In this document: piece by piece, positions 18,763 through 52,860 of the stretch | Layout of the letters: every line of letters starts with the position of its first letter | Position numbering within the stretch: the stretch's first letter is position 1 | Source: Hymenolepis diminuta | Lineage: Eukaryota > Platyhelminthes > Cestoda > Cyclophyllidea > Hymenolepididae | Assembly (NCBI GenBank): GCA_900708905.1 | Contig: CAADRB010000059.1 | Span: 973,855-1,037,854, forward strand | Direction: 5' to 3' | Length of the DNA stretch: 64,000 nt | Notes under the pieces: model-generated | The model's database searches: none | Told to the model about the DNA's origin: nothing | Seen by the model: only the letters and a program-made list of their open reading frames with translations | Position numbers and translations under genes: made by a program

Positions 18763-20324
18763 CTTAATATACAATGAATTAAGAACTGAACCGAATTTCG
18801 CAAATGGAAGGTCGAGTATGTTAATCGACTTACGAATCGTAGAGTTCGCACATTTGCTTTAAATCTAAAACATAAAATACAATACTAGGTTGCAATTGAA
18901 AGTAATAATTATAATTACCAGAAACAAGAGCTAACCTTTCGCCTGTTTCCATATATCACAGTGGAACACTGATTTTCTCAGTTCTTCAGCTAGAAATTTT
19001 AGAGTTTCTCGTCTCTCTTTGTTTACTTGTCGAATAATAGAATTGCATTTGTTATTGCAAACATTATTCTTATAGAAATAGAAGATATAATCAACTATAT
19101 TTCCTGCAGGAAAAAGATCTTGTTACTTAATAATTATAAATAGAAATAGAGTTTAAAGAACAAATTCAATGCCTTCAGTTATTTGATTTGGAATGATAAC
19201 ATGATGACCCATAAGTCCGTGAGAGGTACGATAAATCAGCTGTTTGAGAAGTTGCAGTCGTTTTTCGTGACTTCGAATGTGCTCGAACATTGGATGCAGA
19301 AGCAAGCAGAGAGAAGATCCTAGACCATGACTTAATGTCAAATCGGGTTTCGTTTTCTGATAGTTTAATAATAATAGCATAGCCTAATAAAAAAGAGAAA
19401 TCGAAATCCGTCAAGCATTGTAAGGCCCAAGATCGTTTGAATGTTGCATTAATTTCATAAATAGATATTACTGCCTTTCTTACCTCATCATTTGCCGTTA
19501 TGGCAGCCAAACTCAGAGCACTCTGTCCATTGCAAAGAAGATTTGGGTCTGAGCCTCTTTCCATCAACATTCTGACAATTTTCAAGGAATTCTAAATTAA
19601 TGAAAAAATGATGATGCATAGGTGTAAAGTTATTTAAAGTAAGCGAGTACTGACTTATGCATATTACTTTCTTATCGTAGATTCTAGCGCAACCTAAATG
19701 CAGGGCCGTTCTGCCTCCGTCGTATTTTGATTTCATGACCCTCGTTTCCGAACTCTAGGAGAATATTATTAATATTAGCTGAAAAGAGGTCTAAATAATT
19801 CATTAAAAATAAATTTCTTTAAGTTATACTCCAATATTGAGTTTTGCTATTTTTCTTAAAATCTTCCTTAAAATATTGTCCTATATCATCTCATTTGAAT
19901 TTTAATACATTAGTAAGATGCAACCCATCATCAAATATTTGAAGCAAACTTACTGTATCTTTCCTAAAAATTCTTAAACTAAAGTTAAAGCTGCTTGCCT
20001 ATTTAGTGCAAGGGTTCAAAACTATTCAGTAAGACTTCTCATTAATGTTCTATTTGATTAAAACATCATAGCAAGGATACAATTTGGGTATAGGGATGCA
20101 GACTCTCAGTATAGCATATTCAGAGGGAATGGGTGAGCAGTAGATTTTTAGATTTGATTTCAGTAGATTTTTATTTTGAAATTAAAGATTCTTGAGCAGA
20201 TTGAGTTACAGGTGGTGCCGTCATAACTTCAAATCTTTAAGAGTGTTCCGTCCAGGTGGACCAAAGGATAAAGATGAATAGTTAACAATTACACCGAATG
20301 TCCGTTTTAATGGGCAAAGATATG

Positions 20325-23300: not shown

Positions 23301-26165
23301 GGTATGATATAAGGTTTTACATCACAGAACAAATAGTTTTCATCAATTTGTAAACGATATGAGTTAAAATAAGAAAATTTAACGACTATGATACTTTGCT
23401 TACTTGATTTTTTGACATAAATTTACTAAACTTTGGACGTTTGCTATCAATTTTCATTTCCGTCGGGTTATTCCTGAATGCTACCATTATGTATATTCAC
23501 TCAAATTACTTACTGTTGCATTTTAAACTCTTCTGGCATTTGCGTTTCAACGTAACCTTCTAAAAAGTAGATAAATATTCGTTCATAAATAGCACTTATC
23601 CCATAAGTAAGTACTTCTAACTATCTAAACACCAAAAGGACGAAATTTCGATTAAATGTATTAAATAATTTTAACTTTTACGTTACTAGCCTGTCTTCGA
23701 ACCACTTTTGCGATATAGTATGATTAATTTTGATAACTATGGGTCAATAAACTTAACACATATTCGAAGGTAGCAAAAAATAACAACAAACATTCTTCAC
23801 TCTGAGCAGAAATAGAATGACAAACTCCGCATGCTAAATTTCACACCTACTGAACAAATATACTCTCACCTCTCTTTAGATACTTTTCTTTTATTAGAAA
23901 TGGTTTGTATTGAAATATTTTCCTTATCATGGTAATACTGACATTAATTAACTGCATCTGATAAGAAGTCTATAACACAAAACCACAGAGTCTATGCACC
24001 ATTGCAAGATGAGCAATCTACAGTCCCTCCTCCATCAGTGCAGTAGTTAATTATATGTTCCTAATGCAAAGAAAACTTTTATGCTTATATAAGGCCTTTT
24101 TTAATAAAGTGACTTGGAGTAACTGCGCATCTGTCCTGTCTCTTTCTCCTCTCTTTCTGCTGTGTCAACTAAAACCTAGCAATATCCAGTGGGCAGATTG
24201 AACATGTCAGCAGAAATTGGACTTATTAGCATTCTCAGCTGCATAAGGGGAACCATATCCTATAAAAGGACTATAACTGTGTTTTTCAATCGTTGATATC
24301 AAAATGATCATTTGTACTAATTTACCTTCATCGATATCTTCAGATTCATCATGATCTTCCATTTCTGCGCTAGTTTCTGTAAAGTCGCAGTCTTCTTGGC
24401 GAGGGAAATTTAATGACCACTCAAGTTCAGCTCTATTCCAAAGACCTATATTACCGTTTTCATCTCTCAGTTTCATAAAATGAGTTCCTTGAGAAACACC
24501 ATTCGACTGTCTCTCCAAATAAGCCAAGACACAATGCGTTAGGCAGGTTGTTCCATCTGAAGTAAGGGGGTTTGGATTGGCTCCCAATGAGAGAAGAAGC
24601 TGAACAGCATCAGCATTTTGGTTTACCTAAAAGAATTATAATATTAATTAATAGCTATATATATAATTAATTTAGCAAATATAAATGAAAGTAAGGCATA
24701 TCGTTTTTAAATTTAGTAAATTTTATAAAAATGAAAATTACATAATTGCAAATAACTGCTTTCTGGAATGTAAATTACTCAATCTTACATTACAGATTAC
24801 TTTAACTGAACTTTCTATATTTGTAGAATAAATTCAGTTATCTCTAAGCCTTAATGAAGTAGAAAGTTCAGCAGTTAATGATATGATTTAGGTGGCGTAG
24901 TCAGTAATACACATGCCTATAGGTCTTAGCAGTCCCTCTTAAATACGCAATAGTGGATGAGAATAGCAAGTTGGAAAGGATGAATAAAAACATTACCGAG
25001 GCCAAATAAAGAGCTGTTATACCATTTGTATCAGCCAGATTAACATCAAAATGCAACACTGCTGGCTCTTTAATAATAAATTTGCAATCCGTTTCAAGGG
25101 AGTTCGTAAACACAGTTTTGATATAATAGATATCATTTTCTTCAGCTGCTTTGAATAGTCTTTTGACAACAACAGAAATAGGTCCATTTGATTCATATTC
25201 ACTGTTCAGAATTTCAACCAAATATTTTGAATTAAAACACGTTTTGGAAAGAAGGTTCGTTCGGGAAATAAATTCAAGGGTATATATAATAAAATCCGTC
25301 TCTAGAAGACTAAATCAAAGTTAGTTGACATGTCGGAGGCTTACAAATCGGGATTCGTATAAGTTTCGGAAAGCTTTAGCAAATCATTATCATTAATTAG
25401 AGCATGTAGTTCATTTAGTTCAGGATTATTAAGCCTGTCAAACTGAGTCTAATAATATTAATATAAATATACAATCAAATAGATACGCTGTCATTAAAGG
25501 TTGCTGATAAAATATCGTTTGAAACAACAGAAAATCTTTTGTTAGTAGTATTAAACAAGTTCTCAAAATATTGCAGTGAACTTCGAGGACTCATTATCGA
25601 CGTCGCATTGGTTAGATGCGCACGAATAAGCGCATTTTTTCTCCAGATTCCAATATCAACTTTATTATCTTTAAATAGTGATATTCCGGGTCCGTTTCTC
25701 AAATCATTTTCATAGAATCCCTAATGTAATATAATTTTAGAAATGTAAAACTTCCTACTATGAAGAGCATGTCGTTTGAATACATAGTGATACCAAATCC
25801 ATGGCGCAAACCCCTCCAAAATGTGCCGACATGGACTGAATGATTCGTTTTCCATACACCGAATCCATGCTTTTCAAAATTGAAAAATGTTCCACTGTAA
25901 ACCTAAATTTAAAAAATTTTTTGTTAAAAGAACTCGTACTAAAAATAAATATTTATGGAATTAAGAATTCTCGTACATTGCCATTCAGATATTCCACCGT
26001 ATGGAATAATAGCTTTGCATTATTAACTTTCGCAATCTGCAGGTTTGAAAAATTATCGCCCTCCTTTGGGTTTGCGGAACCTAAACCACTCAGACTCATG
26101 ATTAAATTGCCACCTTGGTTTGAAAGTAAATTGCTGTATTCAATAGGGAATAAGACCGCCATCAT
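18606..26165 (-). CDS. ANKMY1: ANKMY1-like protein: MORN, ankyrin repeats and MYND zinc finger (16 exons)
   Basis: Exons in transcript order: 26165-25977, 25902-25759, 25720-25487, 25448-25345, 25309-24997, 24626-24326, 23559-23514, 23241-23101, 22062-21873, 20739-20557, 19754-19668, 19591-19484, 19383-19173 (donor uncertain), 19103-18936, 18864-18834, 18762-18606. They total 2607 bases, 868 residues, with phase kept throughout. Residues 59-127 hold three MORN-type repeats (YSGTF..KHGFGVW, VGTFWRGLRHGFGI, FYENDLRNGPGI). Ankyrin repeats lie at about 312-350, 500-545, 570-605 and 625-680, with GADPN-type loops. A C-terminal MYND finger uses C823, C826, C837, C840, C846, C850, H859 and C863. The human protein of this architecture is about 940 residues. 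MORN segments usually contact membranes, ankyrin repeats and MYND bind proteins, and the family is linked to cilia. The start is an ATG ATG pair with an in-frame TGA two codons upstream. Function here is inferred from architecture. Confidence 0.9.
19168..19383 (-). CDS. ANKMY1: exon 13 of the ANKMY1-like gene, ambiguous donor
   Basis: The frame is open from the acceptor at 19384 to a stop at 19153 and carries the end of the ankyrin region and its linker. Exon 14 can only be read if exon 13 ends after one base of a codon. Two donors satisfy this: a GC donor after 19173 (ACTGAAG/GCATTG), or a weak GT donor after 19209 (ATGG/GTCATC). No good canonical donor in the right phase was seen. Twelve codons depend on the choice. 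Confidence 0.6.
20327..20357. repeat. (TA)n microsatellite
   Basis: A pure TA run of about 31 bases inside intron 10 of the ANKMY1-like gene. It is likely length-polymorphic. Confidence 0.95.
21272..21780 (+). mobile_element. LTR and leader of a CsRn1-type retroelement in ANKMY1 intron 9
   Basis: A block clearly richer in G and C than its surroundings, on the strand opposite to the host gene. It has a TATAAATA box at 21498-21505, a pyrimidine-rich region up to about 21600, and an LTR-like end near CAATACA at 21625. A leader follows with four primer-binding-site-like words: TGGTGACCC at 21695, TGGCGGCCC at 21713, TGGTGACTC at 21731 and TGGTGACCC at 21753. TGGTGACCC is complementary to tRNA-Trp. 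No gag or pol remains. The left boundary is uncertain. The base composition suggests it is one of the younger insertions here. Confidence 0.65.
21498..21505 (+). promoter_or_regulatory. TATA box of the LTR in intron 9
   Basis: TATAAATA lies in a GC-richer context with no other TATA word nearby. Transcription would start about 25-30 bases downstream and run antisense to the ANKMY1-like gene. Activity is unknown. Confidence 0.5.
22063..23100 (-). other. intron 8 of the ANKMY1-like gene
   Basis: About 1.04 kb with canonical ends (GTAATT donor, ATTAG acceptor). No nested gene or repeat was recognised. Confidence 0.7.
23560..24325 (-). other. intron 6 of the ANKMY1-like gene
   Basis: 766 bases between a GTAAAT donor and a TTTTTAG acceptor. 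An alternative donor nine bases further on (GTACAA after 24318) would change the phase and skip the 46-base exon 7. No other content recognised. Confidence 0.6.
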
Positions 26166-37126: not shown

Positions 37127-37132
37127 TTTATT
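37127..37132 (-). terminator. candidate poly(A) signal of the Ly6-like gene
   Basis: AATAAA on the minus strand about 135 bases past the stop codon, followed by a GATTGTTTT stretch that could serve as the downstream U/GU-rich element. Confidence 0.5.
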
Positions 37133-37266: not shown

Positions 37267-38241
37267 TTAAATTGACATATATAGGAGGAGGAAAGCAGAG
37301 AGAAAAGGCACTGCAATTCCCGATGCTACCCGTATGGCTAAATTTCCATATTTTTTAAAATTCATAGCACCTGAAGCCGTCTTTGGAAGTTCATCGACAG
37401 CCTGATCATTCATTTGTGGTTCTTTGACAGTTTTTTCGACCTTCTCATTGTCAAACATAGTTCTGGCTTCCTTACCAGAGGTTTGAAGGTAGTCTTTGCT
37501 CTCAGCTGCATTCTCAGAAGATTCATGCAGAAACTCTTTCCCATAATGAATCATTTCATCTTTCTCTTCTCCATAATCTTCATTTTCTTTCATGTTCCTC
37601 TTTGAACTGTCAACTCCTGTTTCAAGAGTCGATTTTTCTTCGGTGATGGGTCTCTTAGATTTTTCTTCAGCAGACTTTACAAAATCCTGTCCTTCATTCA
37701 TTGTGGCACTCACGTTCTCCCTCGCGGAATCTACTGAATTGTTATCTTCATCTACCATAGACGAATCATGTTCTTCAGTTTCGTCAACAGAATCTGAAGA
37801 TTCTTCACCATTCTGAATAGGTAATTCGGATATATTATATTCTTCATCCAAAGTTGATGGATAACTTCCATCAATTTCTTCTGTTGATAGGCTCGATGGT
37901 TCTGATGTAGAATCAAGTGTTTCTTCTTCTGTTACTTCAATTTGTGATCTGGAAGTGGTTTGAGCTAGTTTTACCTGAGTTCTTTCTTCCTCCGTTATAA
38001 CCTCTTCTTCCACGGTTGTTGATTTCTCATTTTCACCTTCTCTTTCAGTTTTATAAGCTGCAGTAGTTGCTCTAGCTACGCCTCGGTAGAAGGCAATTTC
38101 ATTCTCTTTTTCCACGTATTTTTCTACTGTTTCCGCATCTAATCCGGTTTTAAAGAGCAAGTCTTTCATAACTTTAACGCGAGTTTCCGAAGCTGGAGTT
38201 GGGTCATGACATTTACTTTCGAAGCAACAGAGACGGCATGT
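37267..38241 (-). CDS. last exon of the Ly6-like gene: end of LU domain, acidic stalk, hydrophobic tail
   Basis: 324 codons plus stop, beginning TCRLCCF directly after a TTTTTAG acceptor. This is the longest open frame in the window. The stalk is dominated by Glu, Ser, Thr and Asp without clear tandem periodicity. A conserved-looking segment GLDAETVEKYVEKENEIAFY follows the LU domain and may form a helix. The C-terminus (from about residue 398) is hydrophobic and ends five residues after a Leu cluster, with no basic cytoplasmic tail. This favours a GPI signal over a transmembrane helix. Confidence 0.92.
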   Translation of the reverse strand, partial: TCRLCCFESKCHDPTPASETRVKVMKDLLFKTGLDAETVEKYVEKENEIAFYRGVARATTAAYKTEREGENEKSTTVEEEVITEEERTQVKLAQTTSRSQIEVTEEETLDSTSEPSSLSTEEIDGSYPSTLDEEYNISELPIQNGEESSDSVDETEEHDSSMVDEDNNSVDSARENVSATMNEGQDFVKSAEEKSKRPITEEKSTLETGVDSSKRNMKENEDYGEEKDEMIHYGKEFLHESSENAAESKDYLQTSGKEARTMFDNEKVEKTVKEPQMNDQAVDELPKTASGAMNFKKYGNLAIRVASGIAVPFLSAFLLLYMSI

Positions 38242-41200
38242 CTAAAAATAAAAATCTCAGAAGTTATATTAACTGAAAAGATTATTGAATGTTAATATAT
38301 ATTCTAAGTGCAACGATACAGAGGTGTCTGTGAACACTTTTGTAAGGCAGGCGAGTTAAACCTTTATAATTAAATATCGCTATTCAAATACTTGTTTATA
38401 TTGTACATTGTTATGGAAGTATTCAAGCTAATTATGTGGGTAGATACGGATTTATTTATCTTGCCTGCTGTAAGCAATCATTAATTTATCGTGATGAGTT
38501 TGTAATAGCCATTAAAAAATGATTAATCACTCATAACATTTTACGAAAGTGTCGGGTAGATCTGATGGAAACCCAGTTAAAAATGAAAAAATGAACTATT
38601 TTTTCAAGGTTTCGCTTCATTTTTACAATCTGTGCTCCTAAAACATATTTGAACTCTGGAACATATTCATCGTTATGTAGTGCTACGTATATATAAGAAA
38701 ATAGAGAGAAAAACGGAAAAAATATTTATTATAGGATATTATTAATTTTCTCTGTCAATATTTACTTTAACTAAAAAAATACTGTTTATATTTTGACAAT
38801 TCCCACTTTATTATCATTTTATCTACTAGGGAATTGGTTTTGACGTTTCTAATACTATTTTGCAGTCACTAGAGCGGGTTATCACGCAGGTAGTTTATTG
38901 TATTACTGACTCTTCAAATCAGATTTAAATAGTTTAATCTAAGATAAGTTTTCAAATAAAGGAAAGTATATTAATTTGACACTCTAAAAAGGATAGAAAA
39001 ACAAATAATCACAAAAATATTTTAAGGTTAAGCGGAATATCCGCCAAAGTTATCTACTTCAAAGACTAGTGGAAAAGTCTTTTACATTATTCTTGGAGGG
39101 AAAAATAGCTTCAACGAATCCTACTAATTAAATTCTTGTATTCAGACACTATTTATTTGTGCATCTGTTGTAATTTATCATTCCCTTCATTAAATATAAA
39201 CCATTGATTATGTGAACCTGACTTGGTAGACGCGCAATTTGACTGCTGCGCAACTGATGCAAAAAACAGACAATGATTTTACCAAAGTATTTTCTGCAAT
39301 CTCCTGATTAAAGCTGCTTTGTATTTTAACTGCTTACGTTATTCTTGTTACTGATAATACTGGTTATTCATATACATGGCAAAGCAAACAATTTAAAAAT
39401 TTTTAATCACGGAGAGCGTCTAAACAATAGGGAGGATTGAAGCTATTTAAGTAATGCCAACAAATTTGTGTGATAAGTAGAGCATCAAAGTTATATAGAA
39501 TTTGGACTTTTAACTAGTCAGACTGCATGCAGTCTAATTTCCGTTCATATGTTTTCAATTAGTCCATATCATCACATTGAAATTTCGGATGGCATATTTC
39601 CAAATCATTTCATAACATCCACTTTTTGCAGAGATCATGTAACAATCATCCAATGTTCAAGAAATTCCATCAGTTTGTGAAGTGCCTGTTATTCAGTGAT
39701 GGTTTATAGTGTAATTCCAGCTAATATCCTAAAAAAATTCATAAAAATGTCAGTAGAAAAGGGAAAAACGTCGGATTTAGAGTCGTTAGAGGTTTCTTGA
39801 ACGATGCTCGGTTGTGTCAGAAACTCCGTTTAATGGGCAAGGTTACTCATTAGTTCGGATAAACAATTTCATAATTAAATGTCATTTTCAATATGAAGGC
39901 GAAGAAAACAAAAATAAATGTTCACGTTATCAAGAAGCAAATATTTAATAGCCTGCATACTTTTGCTATCTCCTTGAAACCTCCTCAGTGTTTAATCTAC
40001 ACCTTCGCAGTATGATTTTCTCACTTCCTATTAGAATTCTGCTTGCAAACCACATCCTCTTTCTCACAGAACACCCGCTTTGCATTTTAATTGGGCTCTC
40101 CAAGCCAGTTCTTTATATCAGAAGCTTGTGATTTTTTGAATCTCGACAATTGGGAATTTAATGAAAGCTCTAGGTATGGTAACGCCTTTTTAGTTTCAAA
40201 TTACCCTGAGATTAAGCCAATGCTTCTGTAATTGCCGGCAAGGTTTCTTAGAGCAGACTTTTCTGCCAGTACTTGAAAACTCATAGAATGAGAGTCATAA
40301 TGGAAATTTTTTGTGTTGCTTTCAATACAAGTGACTAAATTTTTAATGCCTTTGTTCAAATCTGATGAATCTAACTTTTGAATATCATAATGTTTAAATA
40401 AAATAAAAAGCTTTAGATATGAAATATGACTTAAATCAACCATATAGTCATGTATAAACGTCATATTTGTTAGTAAACCCGATTTGACTATTTATTTGAT
40501 AAGAAGAATGATGCAATTTAACCTTGAGAAGCTAAAAATATAGCTTAATTATAATATATCCAAAGTAGACTTTGTAAAACAGTTATTTTATGCATTTTTC
40601 TAGGTCTAGGAAAGAAATACAATTAAAATTGATGAATTGTTATGGTAACATAAGGAACATTATTTACAGTAATAAATACAATACATATAGCAACCAACCT
40701 TTACTCCTCTAATAAAGTCCGTACACATCAAATTTTTGTAGCCTGACGGACAGCCATAGCGTGTTGCACATCCTGATCGGAAATTAAACTTCTTTGTTCC
40801 ATTTGGCACGAAGAACATTTCAATCTACAAAAATTGAGATTGATAGGTAAGGAAGTAATAACAAGATGCGTCGTAATGATAATACTTTTGATTAAAAGGT
40901 CTGCTTTCCTTAGAAATTTCTTAGTGTTTCGGAATAAATGTATGTTTGAAACATGATTGATAGAACAAGTAGGATATAACCGAAGTTGGTTTGAAAAGTC
41001 AAGCTTAACTAAGCGCTGGGCATATTTTACTTTATTTTGCATAGAGTAAGGCTCTAGTAGACAAGGAAGGGACTACTCATAAATATAAGATGAGCAATTG
41101 AGTATGAAAAAGAACTGACCACCGTAAGACAAAAAATATCACAAACCACGGAAATATATATCTACTGGTCAGGAAGTTCTGAAATTTTTCTGAACAAATC

Positions 41201-44200
41201 ACACTCCTAAATCTGGAAGTCTGCTCTAGAAATTTGAAAAGTAGGTACTCTTCAGGAGAACATGAACAACTGAATGCCTACGTAATTTAAATGAATGTCC
41301 TGACTTTAGTATGTGCCTGTTCTTGACCATACACCAATTTAATACCCTATTGGAACCATTTTCTGCTTTTCTTAATCAAATAATTTCCCTCGATAATAAG
41401 TTGCAATTCTTTTGCAATGTCACGGGCAGTAACAAAGGAACAAGAGCAGAATACTGTGCTGCGAATGAGACAATTTTTTAAAGAATTTACTCTATTCAAC
41501 AATGAAATATGCGCCGTGGATATGAGAAGAATAAAGATAAGCTAAAATGTATTTCTAAGAACATTCGGAAAACAAATCAATTGAAAATTGTGCAGAAAGC
41601 TTTGGTACTCCATATTACTCAAATCTCACAAAGTATTATAAGTGTGTTTTACTCACAAATTAGAATGGAAAAATCCCCATCAAAGCAATTTTAGATATAG
41701 CATGGGTTAACTTGTACATAATTTAAGTAATAACCGCATTTACTTCTCATTATTGTGATTTTTGATAGAATTTAGTAAAAATTTTTATGTAAATAATGCA
41801 ATAATAAAAATTACCTAGATATAAACTACCACTTTCAGTTATTTAAATTCGATCATTCCCACTAATTTAAAAGCATTTTAATATATTTTTATTCTTCGTA
41901 GGTAACTACGAATGACGCCGATATGTGGAGAAAAGTGCGCGAAAATGTAAATTTAATTATAGTTAATATAGGATATTATGTTTTTTCTACTTATGCTTTT
42001 CTGCAGGATTATGTTTGCAGTTCATTATTAATTTCAACATCAATTAAACATTCAATCTACTAGTTAGGGATTATAAAATAAGTGCTAACATTTTTCACGA
42101 AACTTATTAGCAAATTACAATGAAATAGAGGTAATAATGATGACGCAGACTGTAACAATTGTGTCAAAACCAAATGGCTAGAGACATCGTACAGCTTCAT
42201 TCAAAGTAATCGAAAAGGCGTTCCTAACAGTTTTCTCATTTTTCGTGCAGCTCTTTGCTCTAAATGGTAAACAGAGAGGCGACGAGATCTAGGAGTTGGT
42301 AGACGTGCAATTTACGAAACTGACTTTGAACCATGATTTTCACAAATTGTTAAAAATTGCGGGCATGACATATGACGGATTTTTATACCTGATAACTTAT
42401 CAGTCTGGTTATTAATTCAGCAGGCAAACGGGAATGCTAGTTTACGTAACTTTAAAGTAAATAATTTTATTTAGCAGAAATTTTTAAAATTTTTTTTTCT
42501 ATTTTAGTGCGACCTGATATTAACCCTCTGTTGCTAACACTTTCTTTGCCCTAGTGACCTATCTGATTTGAAAATAGTAAAAGACTAATAACTCAATGAT
42601 TATTATCCTTTCTTCAGAAAGTGGAACTGCTTACAAATAAATTTGGATGCAACAAATTGATTAACTAGCTGATTAGTCGGTAATGTATCTGTGTCAAAAT
42701 TTCACTTACAACCATGAGCGTTCAAGAGCAGCAATCGAATAACCCAAATGCTAAAGGTACGGATTTTGTCCGTAGAAGACATGCAAAAAAAGTATCACAA
42801 AAATATTAATGGAGCAATTGATTATATGCATAATATTATTTCGAATTTCCGCTTCATCATATGTGTATTTAAAAGCAAATAAGTACGTCTTTGCTTTACC
42901 GTTGTGGATGACGAAATTCAAAAACGCCTTAGTGGTCACTTGGCACAATAGGTATTGTGGGTAAGATAAACGAGTAGATTCAATTAGAGATTGGAAACAT
43001 ATTTATTTTATCGAAACAGTTCAACATTTTTAATTTTGAATTCATTAATTTTTTTATTTTGAATTAACTACCATGCAGTTATTTTGGAGTCAAAATTTAG
43101 AATTATGTCCGTAGGTTCTCGGGTGTTTTACCTTCCAAGAAGTTCAGAGCTTTTATTTCTAATTAAAAGTCAAGCGACTAATAAAAGCATACAAATCCTC
43201 GAATTTTCAAAAATGTATAATAAAATGGGGGTTAGTCTCTAATATCTACTAATATTTAAAGAAGCTTATTTCCCAATATCTGCTGCGGAAGAGTTACAAA
43301 ATCTTCAATGACTAATCCGCATAAACAAATGTCAGCATATTTTCTCAAATTCCTGCAGAAGAGGTGATAAAAATGACTAATGTATAAGACACAAATTTCA
43401 AAAGACCATTGTTGATCAAACCAATTTTTGGAAGTTAAATGTAAGCTATTGCCGTGTATGGCAGTCTTATTTAAATAAACAGAATTGTTAAAGCAATAAC
43501 TAGGACAGATTGGCACTAGGACTCGCAAACGTGAGCACATAAAGTAAATTTCTGGATCTCCTGTGCAATATCCAAGATAAAATGTCATGAAGAAATGCAA
43601 GAGGTTATTGGATCTCCTGCTAATCCGAATAATCTTGCTCTACTTGTCAGTCAAACCGATATCATGTAAACTCACGTATTATTTATATTCTTCTCCTACG
43701 AAATATTAAGTGGACAGTGAAATCAAAGCAGATAGCTGAATAATATTTACGAGATTTAATTGATCAAAGGCATGAGATAATCTAAATAACAGTGGGGTGC
43801 AATTCATGCTTTCATAAATATTTATTTAAGGCAATTTAATTTGTGCTTCTAATAATTATTTACTTATCAGTTATTTTCTGTTAATTTACATTAACCGAAA
43901 AAGCGTCTTTTTTAAATCACTCCATCCTTAACATTTTTCCTCCCTTTGAGTAATTCAGTCAAACTGTAGTTAATAAATTTTGGTGATTCCTAAAATAAAT
44001 CAAGCTGTGACTTCCGGATATCTGAAGGCCTTAAGGGCTGTTCGAGCTTAGATGAATAAGAAGCTTGTTGCATTGAAAATGAAAACAATAATTTATTTGT
44101 TCCTTGTTAACAGGTTCCCTTTGCTGTTACCCTTGTTATTTACAAAAATATAAAATTGAAGTGGCTAACAGCCATCTGAATTTTTTAATTTGTCAATTTT

Positions 44201-47200
44201 TCCACCTCTTTACATATAAATTAAAAGTCATAAGTAAAAGAGTAAAAATCAGCAGATCAAAATAACATTCATAGTTAATCGAAATGTGGTTAAAACAAGT
44301 CAATTTATGAAAGATTGGAAGTGGCGCACTTTCAAAATTTATTCTGACGAGTGGATTGCTATAGAAGGGGACTTTTTAATGATCTGTAAAGTGAGTGTAT
44401 TGAATTTTTGTTACAATTGGCAGGAATCTCCGTGTGAAATTTTTTGGATAAAATCTCGTTGTGATGAAAAGTTAGATAATAAAAAGTGATGCTAGATGGC
44501 AAGTATTATTTATGACATTTATAAATGATATTAAGGCGATAAAATGCTCCCTTGATAAGTCCTAACGGAAAGCTGGTCAACGCGAATATTATGTGTACTT
44601 AACTCTTCTTTGTCTTTGACAATGGCTAAATCATGTGCACACCATTATAAAATTCTAAATAAAAATATTTGAATAAGTCACGGAAAAACAAAAGGAGGAC
44701 GGAGTTTACAGAAAATAGGCTAATAAATTTTAATTAATTGGAGTGAATTGCCCGACAAAACTGGTTAAGCTATGGTGGGATCTTTGAACATATATTAATA
44801 ACCTGTCTTCTTAACTTTTATAAATTTCGACGAAAGTAATCAGTTCTTTACTTTTTTGTATGGAAATGGCTAAAATTGGAAAACTGGAGATTTGCTTCAC
44901 GAAAATAATAGTTGATATGCAAATATAGTCAATAAATTATAGTGGCGTCCGAATGAGCGAACGTATATCAAATAAACAAGAATGCTTAATTAATTCAAAA
45001 CAGTTCCATTGCGACAGTGTAAGTAAACTGCTCTTACTTTTTTACAGTTCACTTAAATGAGTTACAATTTTTTCTTCCGATCAAGGAAACATTTCGTTAT
45101 TCATATCGGAACTTACTTTAGTAATTAAATGAAATATGTTCTGATTAGTGTTGTCGCTAAAAATTGAACTCAATATCATCACTAACATCATATGCAGACG
45201 AATAAATCCTTTTAGCCTATTCCGAAATATTTTAATAACAATTCACTTAATTAGATGGAAGATATCTAGAAACTATTTTGATAAGTGCTCGAATCCTGAC
45301 ATCTCTTTTGTTTAACAGAACAAACCAGTTCAGATGACTATTTACATCACTTCAATCTCAGAATCTTTAAATTTGATGGTGTTTACGTTTAATATTTTCC
45401 GGCCAAGCCCATTTAGGAAAGCTTTCTTTAACACCCAGCCTAATCGGAGCAGTAAAATTAAGAAAAAACTTATTTACTAGCCAAACTTTGCCAGTCGGCA
45501 CCAGTGAGCATTAGACCAGTGACTTCCGACTTTGTAGATGAGTACGTAAGAGATTGCACCAACGGCGCACAAATCAATGTTAATATTATATCGGCTGTCT
45601 TTAAAAAACTGATAAACTATCACCCCTTACTAGGTTTACTAAATGCACGTTTCTAGGCTATAAGCGAGAAAATCTCCCAAATAGGCACTAATAATTTGAG
45701 AATTTTATTTTTAATCCTCTCTTATGAAAAGCATTTTTTCCTTTATTAGATAAAATGAATAAGGTCCTGAGATTGATAAAGTACGTTCCCCACTCAAAGT
45801 GCATTTTGATCACTGACATAAAATTAATTTAAATATATGGCAAAAGTAACATTTTTACCGGGAATCTTGCAATTTGCTATTTCTTATCTAGGTTTTTCAC
45901 TTAACATAATTATTGAATGTTGCATATAATCTAATAAATATACTCGTTGTTATAATTGCGTTTATTTGGTTCGGCGTGAGACCACAGAAATTTTGACGGA
46001 TAAATGACCACAAATATGTTTCACTGCCTACTTAAATATGGCGATGCTTCACATATGTGGTATTTTTAGGCCAAGTGTCAAATCCGAGTATGGGTAAAGC
46101 GCTGAGATTAACCATTTTCACCTATAAAAACATATTCCTTAATTGCAGACTTCATGAAGTATTTTCAACTTCTTTATAATGGATTAATTAAATCCATAAT
46201 CCTGGTTGAAAGGAAAACATTTTAATGTAATGTAAACGATGAAATAATTAGTGCATATCTCGCAGACTTGGACTAATTCTAAAACTAAATTTAATGTTGC
46301 TTTATTAAAAGAAAGGATATACATTAATGGTCGAAAATTTGCAAGCAAGAACTGAAATAACAAACCGATATTGAAAATCTAACGGGTTGTTGCTGGAAAT
46401 AGAGTTAGAAATGAAGGCATGGATAATAAATGAATGAGTATCTATCCTGGGTATAAAAATCTCGAAACATACAATTGCTGTTTTAATCAAAACATATATA
46501 TATATATATATATATATATACATGTTAGAGGAGGAGTAAACATTTGAAGGGAAATCTCTGCGCATTTTTTTAAGTGGATATCGTTTTAAATGATTCTTAA
46601 GGAAAAAATCAATAAATTACTGACAGTTTAAGAACAGGGAACAAAAAGCCTAAGAGCATCAATGGTCATTCCTGCATTAGTGAATTGGAAGATTTAATAA
46701 TGTAAAGCATGGTGTTAGATTACTTATGTGAAAGGACCGATAAATCATATTAAAAACTTATGTGTCAAAAATTTATTTATGATTCACCAGTCGCATTTGT
46801 AGTTTCTGAGTTCATGAAAATGGTTCCAAATCAATTTGCTAACAAAAAGAAATCAGTTTCAGACTTTTTTTAGATACCGGTGATTTTTCTTATTATTTAG
46901 CATATGTTATGTGTATATTGCATCTTTGAAAATATGGTACGGTGTGACCACCCATTCAGCAAATTTTACATGCAAATTTCTAAGGTATACATAATTGGAG
47001 GTATCTGATATGTACTATATTTAAAATTATTTAGATATTATTGAATATTCAGAACTTTTAATAAAGTCTTATTGAAAAGGGATTTTGACTTACCATGCAA
47101 GCTATAGTTCCGCTTTGGCAGACTTCGTTCGTAATCATCTCAGCTCTACAACCCTGCATCTCATCATCGCATTTATGGCAGTTCAGTTGCTGAATATCTG

Positions 47201-48854
47201 TTGTCTTGAACCATGGGAAACAGATAAAATTTTCAAATTATTTGAAAAGTACAAATAAGTGGCTTAAGCCAAAGAATTAGAGTAATCAATTCAGAACCAT
47301 CTGATATAAATATGCATGCAAATTTGAACATTTCTTTCAATTTTATGTGAAATAATTCGAATATACGATACATCATGTGATGTGGTCATCTCTATATTTA
47401 CTCAGAAACTCAATATCCGCTGCCTAATTAAAAGTTTTATCAAGACACTTAGGATTCATTCATGTAATATTTATCTTATTAGTTCTGTTTCCTTTCGTGT
47501 AGCACAATTGACAGTCAACGCGGAATGAATTTGAATAAATATACGATTTTCTTGACTGCATGCAGGAATTTAGCAAAACAAGTGATGTGAAATAAGGTTA
47601 ACATGCATATCAGTGACTTACCGAGTAATCTAAGATAAATGCACGAGGGGTTTAAAATTCACACAATCATAGTATAAAAGTTAATTGCCTGCTTTAAAAC
47701 CAGTTTAAAAATTCTTTAAAAATAAATGCAGTAATATACTATTAAAATTTAACATGAAATCAAGGAGAACAGTGTCTGTTTAATTAATCATCTACCCAAG
47801 ATTAATTCCTCAATCTTTCTAATAATCTAAGGGACGTAGAAGCACCAATCACAACTCAAGCTTCTGCGAAATCTTTATCTTCTAAATCTTACTTTCCACT
47901 TCAATTTAAATTTACTATTAAAATAAATACACCTTACGAACCAAATCAAATGAATAAATTGATTCATTTCGATCAAATGGATCAATTAAGAGAAAGTAGA
48001 TTAATTTTATAATAAAAACTGATCTTTTTCCCATGGATTTTTAGATGATAGAAGACATTTGAAATCATATGAATTGGATTTATCTCAACGTAAAAATTTC
48101 TCTTTGTTTAAATGCAAGGGCGATTTCAATCTCAATTTTGATCAGTACATACTTGTTTGATGACGCTTATCAATCCGTACACATGATTTACAAACTTATG
48201 TACTTATATTCACGAATTCTAGAATATAATTAACATTCCAGCACTTTGCTAATGAGAGAAAGATACTTCGTTTGTAGACAGGCTCAAAGTACGTTTCCTA
48301 ATTCTAAATGAGTTTAGCAGTCCTAAATTTAATAAAAATTAATGAACTTGTTTCATTTTAATCCTTCTGAATAATCACTAAGAGACACATCTTTTAAAGG
48401 TCATTATTGAAGGTGCTAGTCCAACATAACAATATTAGAGATATAGAGAAAGATGTGTCCTCGTTAAGTCTTTTATAATTAATGCCTTAAATAAAACTTT
48501 AGTCATCTGCAAATAAAGTTTTATATATCCGAGCCATAAGACATTGTTAAAAACCCATCTCACGCAACTGTCTTGAATAAGCATTAATAGAGATCAAAAA
48601 ATAGTAAAATAATCTCGATTATGAAAACGAAATTGAGTAACATTATTAAAGTATAAAAGACATATTCTTTAAGACTTCTAACCATTACCTTCCAGAGGCA
48701 TATCATATTCTTTGTAATCAATTTCAAATACTTTATTAAACAAGTTTTAATAATAGACGAAATTACTGATAAACTGTAACTTACCCTTTTGAGGAGCAGA
48801 AATAACGTAGGATGTAAAGAGTAAGAGGGTACCGATGCATTTTGACATGGACAT
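37267..48854 (-). CDS. Ly6/uPAR-domain protein with long acidic stalk and GPI/TM tail (4 exons)
   Basis: Exons in transcript order: 48854-48785, 47197-47094, 40824-40699, 38241-37267. They total 1275 bases, 424 residues, with GT-AG borders and matching phases (1, 0, 0). Residues 1-18 form a signal peptide (MSMSK, then a Leu/Phe core, then SAPQK). Residues 30-111 form one LU domain with twelve cysteines: C30, C33, C40, C50, C57, C77, C83, C92, C102, C105, C106 and C111. It has the LxCxxC opening and the CC....C ending. The Asn that normally follows the last Cys is His112. Residues 114-395 are a hydrophilic Glu/Ser/Thr-rich region. The last 25 or so residues are hydrophobic, as in a GPI-anchor signal or a membrane anchor. 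Such proteins sit on the cell surface, and in schistosomes on the tegument. Most Ly6 proteins are 100-150 residues, so the stalk is unusual. Partner unknown. Confidence 0.88.
38242..40698 (-). other. intron 3 of the Ly6-like gene
   Basis: 2.46 kb, donor GTTGGT, acceptor ATTTTTAG. Only short chance frames inside (for example 40201-40464). No nested gene or repeat recognised. Confidence 0.65.
40825..47093 (-). other. intron 2 of the Ly6-like gene
   Basis: 6.27 kb with donor GTAAGT and acceptor TTTTGTAG, splitting the LU domain between its fifth and sixth cysteines. It contains a TA microsatellite at 46494-46520. The longest internal frame (43256-43600 minus) has a chance length and no domain. 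Confidence 0.65.
46494..46520. repeat. (TA)n microsatellite
   Basis: A pure TA run of about 27 bases in intron 2 of the Ly6-like gene. Confidence 0.95.
47198..48784 (-). other. intron 1 of the Ly6-like gene
   Basis: 1.59 kb between the signal-peptide exon (donor GTAAGT) and the first LU exon. Two AG acceptors lie six bases apart upstream of exon 2. Only the inner one (GACAACAG) keeps the phase. Confidence 0.7.
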
Positions 48855-48857: not shown

Positions 48858-50104
48858 ATAAAGTTGAACGTTTTATTATTATTATTTCACCCTCTTAAAC
48901 AATATAGTTGATTAGTTTTTTCATATCAAAAACATAATAGTAATGAAAATTCAAGATTCTAAGTTTTTCGACAAATCTACTAGCAATCCCACTTAGCGCC
49001 TAAAAGAATCCAAATATTTTGGCTTTCAGAATTGCCAGTATTTTAGGCCTAACTATGAATAAAAGAGTAGTATATGTGCAGTATCAATATCATTGTCTTA
49101 TAAAAGGCATCTGTTTGATTTCTCGTCATCTCAGAAATCTCCGTGAATTAAATAATTTTTACAAAATATATTCGAAAGCAACTATTGCCTCTAACTTACG
49201 TGTATAAATTAGGCTGACTTTCAAATTATAACAATTGACTCATTCGAAAGTCATTAAACAGCTTAAGGTCAAAGATGATTGGCCAAAAAATTATCCAATC
49301 ATTGAAGAGCACAGTCAAATTAGCCATGTCAATGGCCTTCTAAAAACCAAATCACAGAGTTATGTGAACAAAATTTGGTACGAAATGGATGATAAAAGCA
49401 TATTAACCGCATAACGAATAGGTGAGGATACTTTTATCACCTCAGAACATTAAAGAATATAAAAATACTAATTAGAACGGAAAGCAGATAGAGACAAAAT
49501 AAAAAAGCTTTCGAGACCGAATTTATGAAAAAATTTATCGGTAAGCCATCATATGGCGATGAGAACCTTCAAGTTATGTGAATAATATAGGTGGCAATAC
49601 TAATTGCTATTTCAAATTAGATGACAATAAAAATCGTACCAGTTACTGTTTTTACTTCAAAATTTAAAGTTTCAATTTAAGACCAAAGCAAAGATTCTAT
49701 TTCAAATGCCTTTTTATTCAAAGAAGGAGATCTGTTAGAGAATGTCTACAAGATAAAATGAGGTGACCATATCAAATTCTACTTCCTTTAAATATTGCTC
49801 TTGAATAAATTTTGAAAGAATGCATGGAATCGCAAAAGTTTGCCTGAACTGATGTATAATAAAAAGGATGCATTTTTGTCTGATAAACGTACATACTAAG
49901 GCAAGTGGCTGATTCACCAAAAATAACATAGTATGATGCTTCTTGATAAGATTTAAAATAGTGCCGTTAATTTTGCATATAATTGACGAAATAATGAATA
50001 TTCTACTGAAAATATTCTCTACTATTCATCTACTAAGAAAGTTTCATTACATTGTCTAAATTTTCTTATTAGTATATGCTAGTTAAAATGAAATATTTTA
50101 TCCG
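48858..50104. other. region upstream of the Ly6-like gene
   Basis: No coding exon recognised on either strand. It presumably includes the promoter of the minus-strand gene, but no distinctive element could be assigned. Confidence 0.4.
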
Positions 50105-52860
50105 CCTGGTCTCGACTGGCTCGGTTAACTTCGTCATTTGGATCTGCCTATAAACGCCCTCTACAATCGGGTGCATTCTGATACATACCACTCCATTTAC
50201 AGCAGAGATAGTGGTCCAGCGTTTTCCTGAGGTAAATCAAGAAGGTTTTGCTTTATATAATCACGCTAAGGCAGCATTAAAACTGTTAGCGAATGCTTGG
50301 CCAATTTTCCATTCTAAGCGATCAGTTCCACTAGTAGCCTTGCTTATCGTGGACGAAAGACCTAAACGTCAGGAACAAAAGGAAATTATAAAGCTCGTTT
50401 CTTGTTCAAAATGGGTTCCATCTATTGCTTTTGTTCGAAAGGCAAATTAAACTTTCCGGTTGTGCGTCAACTATTTCAAGGTTTAAATGACTCTGTGGAA
50501 CCTAATTTTCATTCACTACCATTTCCTGATGACATCTCGAATGGTGGCAAATGCTATGCAAGGTTTGATTTAGCAGAGGCTTTTTTACAATTCGAAGTTT
50601 TATCAGAGGCACGGGAGCTACTGAGTGTAAATACGCATCGTAGTCAATACCAATATACCAGACTTTCATCCGGTGTCAAGACAGCTGCCCGTAATTTCCC
50701 AAAAATAATGAATTCCATGTATCAGGCCTTTAGGGAATTGCTGCATACCATGATAAGATTGTTGCAGCCTGTCCTCAGTTGGAACTTTAAGGTGTCTTCG
50801 TATTTCTTCAATGTATTCAGAAGCACGGTTTCCGTCTTCGAGCTGAGAAATGTGCAACCTTTGTGACCTCTAATAAATACCTAAAATGTATCTTTGAGAA
50901 AAATGGCCGACGCTCGATTTCAGAAAAGCTCCGAGCAATTACAGAAATGTCACAGTCTACGGAAATTACCACATTGCGTCTCATCGACTACTACGGTACA
51001 TTTCTGTCAACATTGCATAATATTCGGGCTCCTCTAAATGAGTTGCGGGGAAAGATGCTAAATGGAACTGGACTCCTAAATGTGAGAAAGCATTCACTAA
51101 ACTAAAGGATATGCTGCTTTCTCATTTCAATTAGAACCTACTAATCATAGTGGCTGCAAATGCTTAAACTATGACAATGGTGCTGTTATCTCTCATGTCT
51201 TCCCTGATGGTTCAGATTAAGCAGTTACTCATTCCATTCGAAATTTTACTATAGCTGAGAAAAATCCATAGACAGATTGAAAAGGAGTCTTTGACCATCA
51301 GCTTCTCTCTGAAAGGTTTCATAAATTCCTCTACGGAAGGCATTTCACACTGCTGATGGATCTTAAACCAGTTCCCCCTATCTTTGAACCTAAAAAGGTT
51401 ATTCCGGTTTACAATACAAGCCGACTTTAACGTTGGTCGACCATCTGCCTTGACGATGATTTCGAAATAGAACATCGGAACACAACAGAGTTCGAGCAAG
51501 TTGATTAACCTGAGATGTCCCAACAAGGAAACCGTTATTTCAAGTATGACTATGGAAGAAAATGCGCAAACTATTATCTGATGTTGGCGGCAAACTTCTA
51601 GTAACTGCAAATGGTATTTACGATATGACAGGTAAAGATTCATTTCTAAAGAAGGCCATGAAATATTTTCGCACTTGATGGCTAAAATCAAGCCAAAAGT
51701 TCAATCTGCCTCAATTTTAATGACGGTTTAATGATCTCTCTGTGGTTAAATCATGTTAATTGTTTGCAGGTATGAGCAGATTCCTTCAGCTCACCTAAGT
51801 GCTGAAGGAATGACGACAGTTCCATAGGAAGGAACAGTTCCATATCAGTCATCTGAATGTTAGCCGCACAAAATCTGTTACAAGGATGCTTTCATACTGG
51901 CCCGTAATGGACAAGTATATCAAAGCAATTATCCACGGATGTTCAAAACGCCAACAAGCGGCTAATCTTCCTCCACACTAGGGATCCAGTCTCTCCTTGT
52001 TGTCCGCTTACACTTAAATTTTGCTGGACCTGTCAAAGGTCTCTCATATTTCATCATGGTAGATTTGCACTCAGAGTGGCTCGAAGTTATTCCACTAAAG
52101 TCCTCCGCAATTGCCATGTAGACCGATAGTCTCCGCCACATATTTTCAATTCATGGACTAACAGAGACCATTCTAACAGACAACAGCACTAAATTCTTTT
52201 TAGTCCCTTTTCAAGACTTTTTTCAGAGTTATAATATAACTTACGTCTACTCTCCACCATATCATACAAAATCAAATGGTCAGGCAGAACGATTCGTTGA
52301 CATTTAGAAGTCCCTTGGGAAGGAACAATGGAAGAAGCTCCCAAAACCTTCCTTTAAATTTACGGAACAACACCGCATCTAGCGTAAATGACCTCAGTTC
52401 TGTTTAAACTCTTGTGGGGCGTAAACCCAGGCCGATGCGCAGCGCCCTACTTCCAAAGAATTCAACTCTCTCTAGTTCATTTTCATGTGCTAAGAGGACA
52501 CTTCCAATCTCACAACAGTTTATGCGCAGGATCATTGCCCGAATGGCACGTAGGCAGAAAGTACCATCAGGGCTCCACGAGGTTGTGTGCAAGATGAAGT
52601 ATGTATTGATGGTCAAACTTAAATGCGTCATCGAAACCATTTCCATCTTCGGAAGCATCAAAACTGAAAACAGTCTTCTGGATATGATCTTTGATTTTTT
52701 GGCCTCTCACTGCTTGGAAATAACGGTATCACGGAAATTCCACCCAGCAGTTGGCAAAACTTTCGTTAGGAACGTTCCAAAAAATCGTCTAAAAGATTTC
52801 AGCTGGGCCTAAAATTCAAAATGTATGGTGGGAGATTTTCACTCTGGGTGTTGGATAAGG
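50105..52860 (+). pseudogene. broken Ty3/gypsy pol (reverse transcriptase, RNase H, integrase)
   Basis: A colinear but shattered pol, readable only by changing frame. Reverse transcriptase covers about 50200-51100: KRSVPLVAL..VDE and NGGKCYARFDLAEAFLQFEV blocks, then TRLSSGVKTA. The catalytic YxDD box is degraded to YHDK near 50740. RNase H covers about 51150-51500, with the GRHFTLL..D block. The integrase zinc region lies near 51780-51970 and the core at about 52010-52310, with HSEWLEV, LTDNSTKF and PPYHTKSNGQAERF marking the D, D and E positions. A linker to about 52810 follows. At least six stops or frameshifts occur, and no gag, protease or LTRs are attached. The domain order RT-RNase H-integrase identifies Ty3/gypsy. 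It is an old inactive copy. Confidence 0.88.

Follow-up and report, generated by a model that had tools for sequence, protein, structure and literature searches.

The surface Ly6 proteins of trematodes are studied as antigens and as possible complement regulators (PMC4492491, PMC3812095; all papers are cited here for the parts of their text that were available). For Schistosoma mansoni, 11 such proteins are listed, SmLy6A to SmLy6K, of 114 to 191 amino acids (PMC4492491), and for Fasciola gigantica 20, FgLy6A to FgLy6T, of 109 to 197 amino acids (PMC8763315). Both sets were selected with an asparagine after the tenth cysteine (C10-N) as a criterion (PMC4492491, PMC8763315). In the available part of one review of the Ly6/uPAR (LU) domain, GPIHBP1 and SP-10 alone among human LU proteins have gained an added exon that encodes a disordered segment, N-terminal in both, and the acidic arm of GPIHBP1, in which 21 of 26 residues are acidic, speeds ligand association more than 250-fold (PMC6600238). 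Here, we describe a gene of the tapeworm Hymenolepis diminuta, on the minus strand of a 64-kb stretch of contig CAADRB010000059.1 (the window), whose product joins a cysteine-rich, three-finger-like head to a long acidic stalk. An original prediction made from the letters alone had called it a Ly6/uPAR protein with an exceptional stalk and had compared it with trematode proteins. The gene is a tapeworm's, and the prediction was right in substance but needs the corrections given below.

Open-licence papers were searched by title and abstract openings, and among the matches listed we found no description of a tapeworm Ly6 protein, with or without a stalk, and none of a C-terminal acidic stalk inside the last exon of an LU protein. 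According to PMC3812095, a supplementary figure covers 13 relatives, uncharacterised, from other flatworms; words starting with cestod, Echinococcus or Taenia are absent from the main text of that paper.

Results

The gene has four exons and is followed by a possible polyadenylation signal.

48785 to 48854, minus strand: exon 1, from translation; ends in phase 1
47094 to 47197, minus strand: exon 2, from translation
40699 to 40824, minus strand: exon 3, from translation; residues 59 to 100, mid-domain, including C92, first of two additional cysteines in loop 3
37267 to 38241, minus strand: exon 4, from translation; end of the domain, collar, stalk and tail
37127 to 37132, minus strand: AATAAA, possible polyadenylation signal, about 135 nucleotides past the stop codon

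As had been claimed, the exon borders and phases are consistent. All three introns run gt...ag, in phases 1, 0 and 0 when the exon joins are translated, and the joined exons make 1275 nucleotides, or 424 amino acids and a stop, in frame; the ATG is preceded in the same frame by stop codons. A chance open frame is ruled out by conserved orthologs and by shuffling, as the final open frame has 324 codons and the maximum in 200 mononucleotide shuffles of the 13.5-kb region was 162. Mis-joined exons were likewise rejected on sequence grounds, because the phases agree and because the models of relatives P0009 and P0011 to P0013 (described below) show the same intron sites. The P0009 (Rodentolepis) model runs into intron 2 and reads VSQNP after ACM, as the intron 2 donor of the window spells, and in P0011, P0012 and P0013, TCRLCC is preceded by LQ or MQ, which reads like a phase-0 acceptor ending in cag. 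We conclude from the sequence that this is a real, intact tapeworm gene. It is single copy in the H. diminuta genome at the sensitivity used: a six-frame search of 170.6 Mb in 203 contigs at an expect value (E) of 10 or less returned four places, the four exons, so that only one locus matched and no paralog cluster was seen. Moreover, no other CC-x(3-5)-C[NHD] occurs within the window. The public H. diminuta model, P0001, lacks the first two exons; it starts at MFFVPNG and is therefore missing the signal peptide and half of the head.

Relatives were found in one order of tapeworms. A protein search returned 12 proteins at E of 0.001 or less, and a profile of the head and collar returned just P0012 and P0013, the latter a short model that was added as a relative. 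A profile of the whole protein, at E of 1 or less, gave the same 12 proteins only. Both profile searches find only relatives of similar length that share short exact words, and so may miss trematode relatives. The named sources are H. diminuta, H. weldensis, Rodentolepis nana, Anoplocephala perfoliata, Taenia crassiceps, T. solium, T. asiatica, Hydatigera taeniaeformis and Echinococcus multilocularis, and all six genera, looked up through one or more species each, belong to the Cyclophyllidea. Thus, among the relatives found, the family is restricted to that order. The H. diminuta protein P0001 is 99% identical over 86% of the query, and the H. weldensis protein is 83% identical over 76%. The Echinococcus, Taenia and Anoplocephala proteins have the same layout, which is complete from signal peptide through head, collar and stalk to tail in E. 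multilocularis (379 amino acids, "expressed conserved protein") and Anoplocephala (353 amino acids).

Conservation divides the protein into parts that kept their sequence and a part that did not. The parts lie as follows.

48795 to 48854, minus strand: signal peptide, residues 1 to 20; hydrophobic core and VISA/PQ site, by eye
47094 to 47180, minus strand: first part of the three-finger-like domain, C30 to M58, five cysteines; translation and alignment
38209 to 38241, minus strand: end of the three-finger-like domain, residues 101 to 111, TCRLCCFESKC, in the stalk exon; translation and alignment
38080 to 38193, minus strand: conserved collar, residues 117 to 154 (MKD...ENEIA.RG); invariant alignment columns, predicted two helices
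37414 to 38079, minus strand: variable acidic stalk, residues 155 to 376, 222 amino acids, net charge -37, no cysteine; composition
37402 to 37413, minus strand: conserved MNDQ patch, residues 377 to 380, near the membrane end; alignment
37270 to 37344, minus strand: candidate glycosylphosphatidylinositol (GPI) signal, N400 (GN-x-A), then hydrophobic tail 405 to 424 to the stop; by eye

The stalk had been described as about 280 Glu/Ser/Thr-rich residues fused to the LU domain in one exon. The region is indeed long and acidic, but it is not uniform, being made up of the collar, the variable stalk and the MNDQ patch, and the exon is indeed shared, but only the last 11 residues of the domain lie there. 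Head identity to the window protein is 57 to 59 of 87 residues (30 to 57, 58 to 101 and 102 to 116 summed) in P0004 to P0008, with 15 to 17 of 28 over residues 30 to 57 and 29 to 30 of 44 over residues 58 to 101; these figures are limited to the five complete head models, and P0009 and P0011, with faulty head models, were left out. By comparison, identity over aligned positions of stalk residues 155 to 372 is 19/136 in Anoplocephala and 16.1 to 18.8% in P0005 to P0008 and P0010 to P0012 (Taeniidae, two of them placed by similarity). The head thus keeps about two thirds identity to other tapeworm families and the stalk 14 to 19%, the latter figures being rough because the stalk alignment is uncertain. 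Within the window protein's own family, Rodentolepis is identical at 53/136 stalk positions and H. weldensis at 178/218.

What the stalk keeps is its charge. From the RG of the collar to the MND of the patch, all 14 sequences (the window protein and P0001 to P0013, with the window protein and P0001 from the same species) are net negative, at -0.101 to -0.217 per residue, over lengths of 60 to 226 residues. Acidic residues make up 19 to 29% of the stalk across sequences and are interspersed with Lys and Arg. In the window protein, the stalk is 27% Asp plus Glu and 23% Ser plus Thr, and its composition is disorder-prone: the charge-hydropathy value is -0.33 for residues 155 to 384 and +0.13 for the head. 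The disorder that had been proposed fits these values and fits the model of the E. multilocularis ortholog, in which the predicted local distance difference test score (pLDDT) is below 50 over residues 163 to 366. Glycosylation had also been proposed, but H. diminuta shows little sign of heavy glycosylation, with 2% Pro and three N-glycosylation sequons in the stalk, although Thr-rich stretches occur in Taenia and Echinococcus. Indeed, taeniid stalks have 14 to 23% Thr and one or two cysteines, so that the region changes between groups and the Hymenolepis stalk is one of its versions. Selection seems to keep the negative charge and lack of structure of the stalk, and not its sequence.

The collar and the patch flank the stalk. 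In the alignment, MKD, ENEIA and RG of the collar are invariant, and P0013 differs slightly (ETEIA). The collar is probably helical, as helices are modeled at residues 127 to 139 and 144 to 160 in the E. multilocularis protein and at 123 to 135 and 140 to 169 in the Anoplocephala protein. Its fold was barely probed by the VIA match rows, however, because these span model residues 31 to 138 only. At the other end, M377 and D379 are invariant in 13 aligned sequences, with MSDQ in P0004 (Anoplocephala) and MKDE in P0009 (Rodentolepis), and P0013 also has MNDQ. The patch stays constant while the adjoining stalk varies freely.

The termini are those of a secreted-type protein with a hydrophobic C-terminus, as originally proposed, and without a cytoplasmic tail. 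About nine residues separate the signal peptide from C30, and the N-termini of P0004 and P0006 to P0008 are similar. GN[LSV]A followed by a hydrophobic tail is found in the window protein, P0001, P0002, P0003, P0004 and P0009 (Hymenolepis, Rodentolepis, Anoplocephala and P0003); the motif is absent from the other relatives, the Taenia, Hydatigera and Echinococcus sequences among them. Given the signal peptide, the N-x-A site and a tail that runs to the stop codon, the mature protein is probably GPI-anchored at the surface.

The head spans 82 residues, C30 to C111, and has 12 cysteines. Ten fit the Ly6 order, starting CHKC (the C1-x-x-C2 start of an LU domain, which has 10 cysteines in 60 to 110 residues) and ending CCFESKC (the CC-x(3-5)-C end); the extra pair, C92 and C102, lies in loop 3. 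In an LU gene, a signal exon is followed by two domain exons; phase-1 introns flank these, and the intron between them falls at the loop 2 tip. The tapeworm gene has the phase-1 intron after the signal exon but three further exons and two phase-0 introns, one placed directly behind cysteine 5 and the other within loop 3. Structure models were made of the E. multilocularis ortholog and of the Anoplocephala ortholog. The first matches three-finger chains with uPAR- and GPIHBP1-type folds, GPIHBP1 and C4.4A/LYPD3 being among the top matches. From the order of its cysteines, one sub-threshold UPAR_LY6 match and one of the two models, the head looks three-fingered.

Other matches were weak. A sequence search of solved structures gave five short matches over 16 to 17 residues, mostly to designed "Cake" proteins, and further searches were empty. 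UniRef names some relatives ShKT, LEM or CLIP protease proteins; at E 1, neither the target nor any of its 13 relatives has such a Pfam match, and the labels were rejected. NCBIfam matches were dismissed as noise, and New_glue (2 of 11 relatives, best E 0.0098), FimV_N and HCMV_UL116 (one relative each) and a weak Cas_VVA1548 Pfam match were taken as chance or low complexity.

Elsewhere in the window, a weak RVT_1 match (E 0.0037, below cut-off) lies upstream of the gene at 50366 to 50863, plus strand, where G+C is raised (0.394 in 50001 to 52000), and by appearance it looks like a decayed retroelement. Two open frames on the minus strand, 24210 to 24626 and 19178 to 19591, are ankyrin-repeat-like by eye and possibly are exons of one ankyrin-repeat gene; the first has Ank_4 at E 0.0098, below the Pfam cut-off, and the second has no Pfam match at E 0.01.

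Discussion

How the head, collar and stalk work together may be read from their conservation. We think it probable, without pressing the point, that this intact, single-copy gene of a Cyclophyllidea family encodes a GPI-anchored surface protein in which a three-finger-like head and a helical collar bind a ligand and a polyanionic, disordered stalk serves as tether. A secreted precursor would be made and then GPI-anchored at the surface. The head, with up to six disulfides, would sit on the short collar, and the two, as the conserved part, would probably bind the ligand. The stalk and the membrane-proximal MNDQ patch would link them to the anchor, the stalk acting as a soluble, repulsive tether that is free in sequence and held to its charge. 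By denatured-chain scaling, 230 residues would measure about 12 nm from end to end (contour length 83 nm), and such a span could hold the head out beyond the membrane or glycocalyx, with charge repulsion stretching it further.

Several findings weigh against this reading, and those on the head bear on its class. None of the 13 sequences with the site (P0003, whose model starts downstream, is omitted) has the asparagine after cysteine 10 that the LU review calls invariable (PMC6600238); cysteine 10 is followed by HDP, HNP, LDP, VDP or IDP, with His in the window protein. UPAR_LY6 of Pfam was not matched at E 5 by the target, the E. multilocularis head or the T. solium head and was matched at E 1 in only 1 of 11 relatives, and the best PF00021 score, for the Anoplocephala head only, was 18.6 bits against a cut-off of 24.8. 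All Foldseek rows of the first model miss E 0.001, and the best of its five versions has a mean pLDDT of 46.6, the other four 30 to 36. The head of the second model is unfolded (pLDDT about 40) and matches mainly antibody chains. At the other end, the tails of Taenia and Echinococcus show only moderate hydrophobicity, some of them containing Lys or Glu; the P0013 model is truncated, and P0005 has a different terminal sequence. Finally, the stalk of P0013 has just 60 residues. Because the asparagine is missing, we do not file the head as a strict Ly6/uPAR member; of the single 82-residue LU domain originally predicted, the span and three-finger-like character stand, and the strict class is not supported, with Pfam below cut-off as well; the domain has 12 cysteines rather than just the usual 10.

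The short P0013 stalk means that reach varies, which weakens a pure spacer role and makes an electrostatic role, as in GPIHBP1, possible. The acidic stalk might gather or stabilise a basic ligand and pass it to the head, such that charge matters and not reach. The negative charge kept in every sequence despite the spread of lengths, the place of GPIHBP1 among the top fold matches and the association rate conferred by its arm (PMC6600238) are consistent with such a capture arm. The GPIHBP1 arm is N-terminal and acidic at most of its positions (PMC6600238), however, whereas the tapeworm stalk mixes its fewer acidic residues with Lys and Arg, and we consider capture rather unlikely. Shedding seems less likely again. 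Cleavage of the stalk would release a soluble factor made up of head and collar, a disordered, exposed stalk should be accessible to proteases, 11 human LU proteins, SP-10 included, are secreted (PMC6600238), and the Taenia and Echinococcus tails are weak; but different genera retain the MNDQ patch, and six sequences, from Hymenolepididae and Anoplocephala, have GN[LSV]A ahead of the tail. That the protein instead crosses the membrane once and lacks a cytoplasmic tail, or belongs to an internal compartment, with a cysteine domain of another disulfide fold, would suit the missing asparagine, the extra cysteine pair, the ShKT or LEM labels and the unfolded second model, but it is improbable given that Pfam at E 1 finds neither ShKT nor LEM and that the first model matches three-finger chains.

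Why the surface-anchored reading matters is twofold. A single-copy tapeworm family found across the Cyclophyllidea and likely at the surface offers a defined protein whose localisation and ligands can be studied, and its stalk is a comparative case of a disordered region that changes most of its residues between families yet keeps its charge. More tentatively, the family may be an order-restricted set of tapeworm surface proteins whose binding unit consists of a divergent three-finger head together with the conserved helical collar, kept away from the membrane by a C-terminal, polyanionic, disordered tether selected for charge and reach and not for sequence, a mirror image of GPIHBP1 that arose within one exon and not by exon gain.

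Among known systems, the trematode Ly6/CD59-like proteins share the signal peptide, the C-x-x-C start, the CC-x(3-5)-C end and the hydrophobic C-terminus. They differ in length and in C10-N, as the tapeworm protein has 424 amino acids, a collar and 222-residue acidic stalk, C10-H and 12 cysteines, and its size is indeed exceptional next to the 31 tabulated trematode proteins of 109 to 197 amino acids (PMC4492491, PMC8763315). C4.4A/LYPD3, also among the top VIA matches, has a Ser/Thr/Pro-rich region before its anchor that is shorter and not marked by acidic residues. It too is GPI-anchored but carries two LU domains (PMC6600238), where the tapeworm protein has a single head. SP-10/ACRV1 likewise joins an LU domain to a disordered extension of variable length, but the extension is N-terminal and the protein is secreted (PMC6600238), whereas the tapeworm stalk is C-terminal and the protein probably anchored. 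GPIHBP1 likewise pairs one LU-type domain with a disordered, acidic segment and is anchored through GPI, the GPI signal being a candidate in the tapeworm protein. Its acidic arm is short, N-terminal to the LU domain and encoded by an extra exon (PMC6600238), whereas the tapeworm stalk is long, C-terminal to the head and in the last exon, so that the tapeworm protein is not of the GPIHBP1 type. The design was originally described as one not known for the Ly6 family; we did not find the C-terminal stalk described, but acidic disordered arms have precedents, both N-terminal, in GPIHBP1 and SP-10 (PMC6600238). The family is uncharacterised as far as we found, and its C-terminal acidic stalk in the last exon is a variant of the acidic or disordered-arm designs of LU proteins.
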